A DNA stretch of 64,000 nucleotides from Peptacetobacter hiranonis (GTDB lineage Bacteria > Bacillota > Clostridia > Peptostreptococcales > Peptostreptococcaceae). Of the stretch, positions 49,761 to 50,000 are shown piece by piece. The notes beneath the pieces were generated by a model. That model saw only the letters and a program-made list of their open reading frames with translations. It ran no database searches and was not told the DNA's origin. Where the stretch lies: positions 1,240,001 through 1,304,000 of the forward strand of contig NZ_CP036523.1 of NCBI RefSeq assembly GCF_008151785.1, in the 5' to 3' direction. Numbering within the stretch: the first letter of the stretch is position 1; each line of letters starts with the position of its first letter. The position numbers and the translations under genes were made by a program.

Positions 49761-49805
49761 AAAAAAAGGACACAGTAATTGTATCTAACAAAAACTGTAT
49801 CCTTT
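49761..49805 (-). terminator. Leader terminator between the TCTG leader ORF and the LRR gene
   Basis: On the minus strand AAAGGATACAGT (49794-49805) pairs with ACTGTGTCCTTT (49765-49776) with one G-T pair, TTGT/ACAA adds to it inside, and a T run follows. It lies about 40 bases before the LRR start codon, inside the presumed transcript, so it must be read through for the gene to be expressed. Confidence 0.8.
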
Positions 49806-49837
49806 ATATATCTCTATTAAAAAATTGCATAACAAAA

Positions 49838-49930
49838 TTACAGACTTACTTGTCTGTCTGTCTGTCTGTCTGTCTGTCTGTCTGTCTGTCTGTCTGTCTG
49901 TCTGTTCAGATTTTCGCAAACCTTCAACAT
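49838..49930 (-). CDS. Leader peptide ORF containing the TCTG repeat
   Basis: 30 residues: MLKVCENLN, then RQTD units encoded by the tract, then RQVSL. AGGAG lies nine bases upstream of the ATG at 49930. Promoter TGTTATAAT is about 60 bases further upstream. As in hsdS all frames of the tract read the same DRQT peptide; repeat number only sets the exit frame. Present exit: stop at 49838, about 33 bases before the terminator stem. One other exit stops at once; the third continues through the 5' half of the terminator stem and stops in its loop. Confidence 0.65.
   Translation of the reverse strand: MLKVCENLNRQTDRQTDRQTDRQTDRQVSL
49853..49904 (-). repeat. TCTG x13 tetranucleotide tract
   Basis: Thirteen perfect TCTG units, the same unit and orientation as in hsdS. 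Lies in the leader of the LRR/CWB2 gene. Confidence 0.97.
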
Positions 49931-49991
49931 GTCTGTCAACTCCTAGCAATTTTACATTTCATATTTTTATTTTATATAATATGTATAAAAT

Positions 49992-50000
49992 ATTATAACA
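49992..50000 (-). promoter_or_regulatory. Extended -10 promoter for the leader ORF and LRR gene
   Basis: TGTTATAAT on the minus strand; a weak -35 (TTCAAA) lies 17 bp upstream of the -10. The transcript start would be near 49985. Confidence 0.6.

Follow-up and report, generated by a model that had tools for sequence, protein, structure and literature searches.

How could a repeat tract influence a surface-protein gene that begins only beyond a transcription terminator? This question is raised by a locus on the minus strand of a 64,000-nucleotide stretch of Peptacetobacter hiranonis DNA (NZ_CP036523.1, positions 1,240,001 to 1,304,000; the window), where a CAGA array lies within a short leader ORF and an intrinsic terminator separates this leader from an LRR/CWB2 protein gene. 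Judging from the sequence, we consider it very likely that the locus is a slipped-strand (phase-variable) transcription attenuator, in which the number of repeat units would decide where a ribosome stops relative to the terminator.

Anatomy of the leader and its predicted states

A preliminary description of the locus had set out the order of promoter, AGGAG-ATG, leader ORF, terminator and LRR gene, and all of these elements were found in place (Table 1). The 30-codon leader with 13 repeat units that it reported proved to contain a perfect (CAGA)13.75 array. A second promoter-like element, P2, overlaps the leader start codon and abuts the array. The terminator has a predicted stability of -20.2 kcal/mol (z = -7.25), equalled by none of 200 shuffles. 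The downstream protein was assigned by Pfam (PF04122, E 1.7e-53; PF12799, E 2.7e-19) and its gene has its own Shine-Dalgarno sequence (SD). A plain in-gene frameshift by the array is ruled out, as had been argued before, because the LRR ORF begins only downstream of the terminator.

Table 1. Features of the leader locus in window coordinates, with the related leader copies in genome coordinates.
Feature	Position	Strand	Remarks
P1, putative leader promoter	49992..50020	-	-35-like TTCAAA 50020-50015; extended -10 TGTTATAAT 50000-49992
Long-range helix, 5' arm	49946..49954	-	UAAAAUUGC, immediately upstream of leader SD; predicted by folding
Leader ORF Shine-Dalgarno	49940..49944	-	AGGAG
P2, promoter-like	49910..49939	-	TTGACA 49939-49934, 18-nt spacer, GAAAAT 49915-49910; 10/12 match
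Leader ORF, 30 codons	49838..49930	-	MLKVCENLNRQTDRQTDRQTDRQTDRQVSL; ATG 49930, current-frame TAA 49840-49838
(CAGA)13.75 array	49851..49905	-	perfect, 55 nt = 13 full units + 3 nt
GTCTG	49841..49845	-	able to pair with array CAGAC; within exit motif TAAGTCTG
Long-range helix, 3' (exit) arm	49818..49828	-	GCAAUUUUUUA; predicted by folding
Intrinsic terminator hairpin	49765..49805	-	5' arm AAAGGATACAGT 49805-49794; U-tract to 49761
Blocking-frame stop TAG	49787-49785	-	in apical loop of predicted terminator hairpin
Gene proposed to be controlled	46585..49719	-	1044-aa LRR protein with three CWB2 repeats; ATG 49719
Other leader-type CWB2 copies	745835, 1959748, 1963371		genome positions

The three exit frames reach stops 2, 10 and 63 nt past the array, and the terminator stem starts at 45. 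Two of the frames had been said to halt ahead of the terminator, and they end 35 and 43 nt upstream of its stem. The third, described as ending at a TAG in the loop, does end there, with its TAG precisely within the hairpin's predicted apical loop, ~65 nt upstream of the LRR gene start. The sequenced tract leads into the second exit frame and is predicted to be OFF, a reading which, like the leader family, the SD-exit pairing and the promoter abutting the array described below, goes beyond the preliminary description. Gain of one unit would lengthen the leader to 49 codons and bring its stop into the loop, predicted ON, and loss of one unit would give the shortest leader, predicted OFF.

We propose that polymerase would initiate at P1 to produce a leader RNA carrying the short ORF. 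Since (CAGA)n is open in three frames (Q-T-D-R), the unit number modulo 3 would set the frame in which the ribosome exits. In two frames, of which the sequenced tract represents one, translation would halt 35-43 nt short of the stem, the hairpin would form and the gene would be OFF. With one additional unit, the ribosome would halt at the loop TAG and cover the 5' arm, allowing the LRR/CWB2 gene to be transcribed (ON). Sequence and statistics demonstrate the anatomy, the frame partition and, as described below, the SD-exit pairing and P2, whereas switching and antitermination in P. hiranonis are inferred.

Just upstream of the putative leader promoter lies a nested palindromic interspersed repeat (50170-50390, core of ~67 bp at 50242-50308), with ~35 partial copies in the P. 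hiranonis genome and none in two sister species.

Related leaders in the genus and across Clostridia

The P. hiranonis genome (2.52 Mb, one contig) contains five CAGA arrays of this size, four in the leader layout ahead of CWB2 cell-wall proteins and the fifth inside hsdS. Two other species of the genus also carry CAGA arrays. The same pattern found none in 58 genomes from the rest of the family and order outside this genus, and a strict array-start pattern found arrays in 9 of 391 genomes elsewhere in the class. A search of genome contigs for related loci with the LRR protein found none. The ortholog from another species of the genus (L079, genome G001) has the same leader ahead of an LRR protein whose N-terminus is almost the same. 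Its stem arms (AAGGCATAGT/ACTATGCCTT) differ in letters from those of the window (AAAGGATACAGT/ACTGTGTCCTTT) with pairing kept, and several spacers contain indels, while the loop TAG is retained in the blocking frame. The tract length of this ortholog is predicted to be ON, opposite to the window.

The window also contains an hsdS array of 20 CAGA units (14519-14598; hsdS ORFs 14511-15779 and 13897-14469, minus strand). Two specificity domains lie upstream of this array and a third downstream in a different frame, so slippage should toggle HsdS between a short form and a longer one, giving a phase-variable type I restriction-modification system.

Matches to the short leader pattern were found in at least 117 stretches. 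Nearly all of the matches listed came from Clostridia, including Lachnospiraceae, Oscillospiraceae, Christensenellaceae, Mogibacterium and Anaerotignum; a few listed matches were from elsewhere, for example Lactococcus insecticola (L170) and, within hsdS, Gemella (L168). Comparison of these loci reveals a common 5' part in three settings: (i) leader, terminator and gene; (ii) an array in frame with the gene, as in acyltransferase-like membrane proteins; and (iii) hsdS. Most leaders were fetched by a pattern with TTGAC and ATG, and the terminator and frames were not part of it. SD and ATG are also conserved in leader-type loci collected by the array alone.

For class (i) we compiled 74 loci with a terminator beginning 26-72 nt past the array, the frame test being confined to loci in which a terminator of -10 kcal/mol or stronger was detected within 75 nt. 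In 73 of the 74, which are not fully independent (relatedness among them was reduced and not removed), one or two exit frames are blocking and at least one is non-blocking, versus 58.4 +/- 3.3 for dinucleotide-shuffled tails (maximum 71 in 1000 shuffles). No locus has three blocking frames, and the single one without a blocking frame is a P. hiranonis paralogue (L032) with no clearly blocking frame and its nearest stop 14 nt upstream of the stem. Each of these loci has a frame whose stop lies no more than 21 nt past the array. Two blocking frames are present in 42/74 loci, where ON would therefore be expected to be commoner; among 67 readable leaders, the predicted states are 29 ON and 38 OFF. 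Thus, the window layout is more than chance, given the four leader copies, the ortholog with its rewritten stem and the non-random frame partition over 74 loci. The earlier suggestion that slippage operates an attenuation switch gains support from this partition and from the loop stop in the diverged ortholog.

Other parts of the leader recur as well. The P1-type motif TGnTAYAAT occurs upstream of the SD in 18 of 63 leader loci (0.9 in shuffles), and 39 of 67 have TCTG no more than 25 nt from the array (10.4 +/- 2.7 expected). The weak CAGAC/GTCTG hairpin was rejected as a terminator, being without a clean U-tract at most loci, and may be a pause signal. Tracts do change length, since near-identical loci ahead of the same gene in isolate contigs (L205, L208 and L212) have arrays of 63, 79 and 55 nt, differing by 4 and 2 units. 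The target proteins are diverse and mainly surface or secreted (BspA-type LRR, CWB2, Big_2, SpaA, pilin and SLH), with a hydrophobic N-terminal segment in 45/65. Frame-dependent leader attenuation thus appears, on sequence grounds, to be a widespread and new family with nearly all of its loci from Clostridia.

In a draft assembly from the comparison (G002), contigs C10, C14, C15, C17 and C18 break within CAGA arrays, and at least six leader-type loci are present, mostly at contig ends. Because short-read assemblies break at such arrays, these switches are easily missed.

The predicted SD-exit helix and the promoter-like element P2

In class (i) the leader SD region can pair with sequence that follows the array, and more strongly with its own partner (-9.4 kcal/mol) than with foreign ones (-8.1 kcal/mol). 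This covariation is locus-specific (P = 0.0004) in a composition-corrected double-difference permutation, which removes base composition as the source of the pairing. The window helix, TAAAATTGC/GCAATTTTTTA, has a pairing probability of ~0.97 in partition-function folding, is also present in the MFE fold and is predicted to leave AGGAG adjacent to the paired region. At many loci the SD-side arm is in this helix with a probability near 1. Such pairing is also exemplified by L164, with ACGGAAAGGG/CCCTTTTCCGT, and by the 1963371 paralogue, where the match is long. No such pairing was found for the in-ORF and hsdS arrays of classes (ii) and (iii). Initiation at the leader is probably linked by this helix to translation of the exit region: ribosomes that leave the array in the ON frame would hold the helix open, whereas in the OFF frames it would close, silence the leader and sharpen the switch.

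P2 is a shared feature of all three classes. Claims about it rest on the loci collected by the array alone and on features absent from the fetch pattern. TTGACA (at least 5/6) is found about 31-34 nt ahead of 24 of the 27 arrays gathered with the array as sole criterion, versus 3.2 of 27 in shuffles (maximum 8). Over 87 loci, TATAAT-likeness of at least 4/6 concentrates at spacers of 17 (n=48), 18 (n=21) and 16 nt (n=12), with few elsewhere, and 80/87 have near-consensus -35 and -10 elements at the best spacing. This sigma-A-like promoter precedes the arrays even inside hsdS coding sequence, where the codons of the LLTF motif read TTGAC in 9/9 motifs with an array after them and in 5/21 without (Fisher P = 1.4e-4). 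TTGACA is therefore not a by-product of HsdS codons, nor is it one of the SD helix, since in-ORF arrays have P2 without the helix. In one hsdS (L267, G286) the LLTF codons contain TTGACA, and the tract after them is (AG)n in place of CAGA.

The near-consensus sequence and spacing would suit a reading in which P2 is the working promoter, array length tunes promoter strength or mRNA stability and the leader ORF is incidental. We regard this as unlikely: SD and ATG are conserved in leader loci collected by array alone, the exit-frame partition is under selection, the P1 motif is significant, and P2 transcripts would be without the leader start codon and should not help expression.

In all classes, P2 lies where a promoter that initiates within the array would be expected. 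In E. coli, transcription destabilizes some repeats. As P2 has no obvious expression use in any class, we propose that it stimulates slippage: initiation inside the array would raise the slippage rate, and a mutator promoter is our best guess for its role. More broadly, it is conceivable, if rather doubtful, that the arrays' own promoter in Clostridia (TTGACA, 17 nt, TATAAT-like) sets the slippage rate as a cis mutator shared by attenuator, in-ORF and hsdS arrays, and that in attenuators the SD-exit helix additionally makes leader translation and the switch all-or-none. If P2 is indeed a mutator promoter, these loci would offer a direct test of contingency loci that tune their own mutation rate.

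Known systems and remaining alternatives

The core mechanism is established biology and not categorically new, since frame-dependent leader attenuation was shown genetically for pil1 of S. gallolyticus (Danne et al. 2014, PMC3894217). In pil1 and pil3, GCAGA pentamers in a leader ORF control pili, OFF frames stop 28-39 nt upstream of the hairpin, ON frames stop in or past it, and the upstream promoter alone was active in reporter fusions (PMC3894217). The window locus shares the SSR with a unit indivisible by three, in a short leader ORF with an RBS (SD) and start codon, the intrinsic terminator ahead of a surface-structure gene, and the division of exit frames between stops upstream of the hairpin and stops in or past it. 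It differs in having a CAGA tetramer and an LRR/CWB2 target, in a different order of bacteria. That paper (PMC3894217) describes neither an SD-exit helix nor an array-abutting promoter, and these conserved parts appear new relative to it. A search of the open-access literature, with subscription papers outside it, found no other SSR-leader attenuators. Thus, a mechanism known, as far as found, from two pilus operons of one Streptococcus would extend to a family in gut and oral Clostridia that controls adhesin-like surface proteins. ON and OFF states can be read from genome sequence, so phase states would be scorable in isolates and metagenomes.

C. difficile CwpV is a CWB2 protein with terminator-based phase variation through DNA inversion (Emerson et al. 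2009, PMC2784873). It resembles the window locus in its CWB2 domain and in post-initiation phase variation through an intrinsic terminator, but it uses site-specific inversion, without a leader ORF or SSR. A CwpV-type inversion was rejected here: none of three inverted pairs at the locus cleanly brackets the terminator as an invertible segment. An AT-rich 12-nt pair (92%) spans the entire leader, and an AT-rich 16-nt pair flanks P1 alone (15/16; 49956-49971 and 50019-50034; equalled in 1/150 shuffles). Tetranucleotide slippage is shared with the translated SSRs of Haemophilus, Neisseria and Moraxella and with SSR-hsdS, but those tracts frameshift within the gene itself.

The hairpin might instead act as an mRNA structure that a long-frame ribosome opens, or that ribosome might reinitiate at the gene SD. 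Some blocking frames end well downstream of the hairpin, as such translational control would allow. We find it very unlikely, because U-tracts typical of intrinsic terminators follow the hairpins, the LRR gene carries its own SD, the window frame ends well short of the gene start, and qRT-PCR in the precedent gave transcript changes (PMC3894217). A fixed array sensing translation rate or amino acid supply, as in trp-type attenuation, where ribosome position likewise governs terminator formation and to which the leader, SD and terminator would be suited, is extremely unlikely, as the window folds contain no antiterminator that excludes the terminator (the helix pairs the SD region with the exit, not the stem), the Q-T-D-R codons are dictated by the repeat, the tract is perfect over 13.75 units and related loci vary in unit number. 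The attenuator that we propose differs from the trp type in being controlled by leader length and frame and not by stalling. Rfam leader and riboswitch families gave only a chance match (mir-250, 17 bits against a cut-off of 58).

CAGA arrays are also found in phage ORFs on rumen viral contigs (L202, L207 and L209), with identical upstream flanks and 10 or 12 units, and it seems that phages, too, employ these contingency repeats. At L249/L259 (G452), the end of an hsdS gene carries an array, after which come the exit motif of the attenuator class and a terminator, an apparent hybrid of the two settings.
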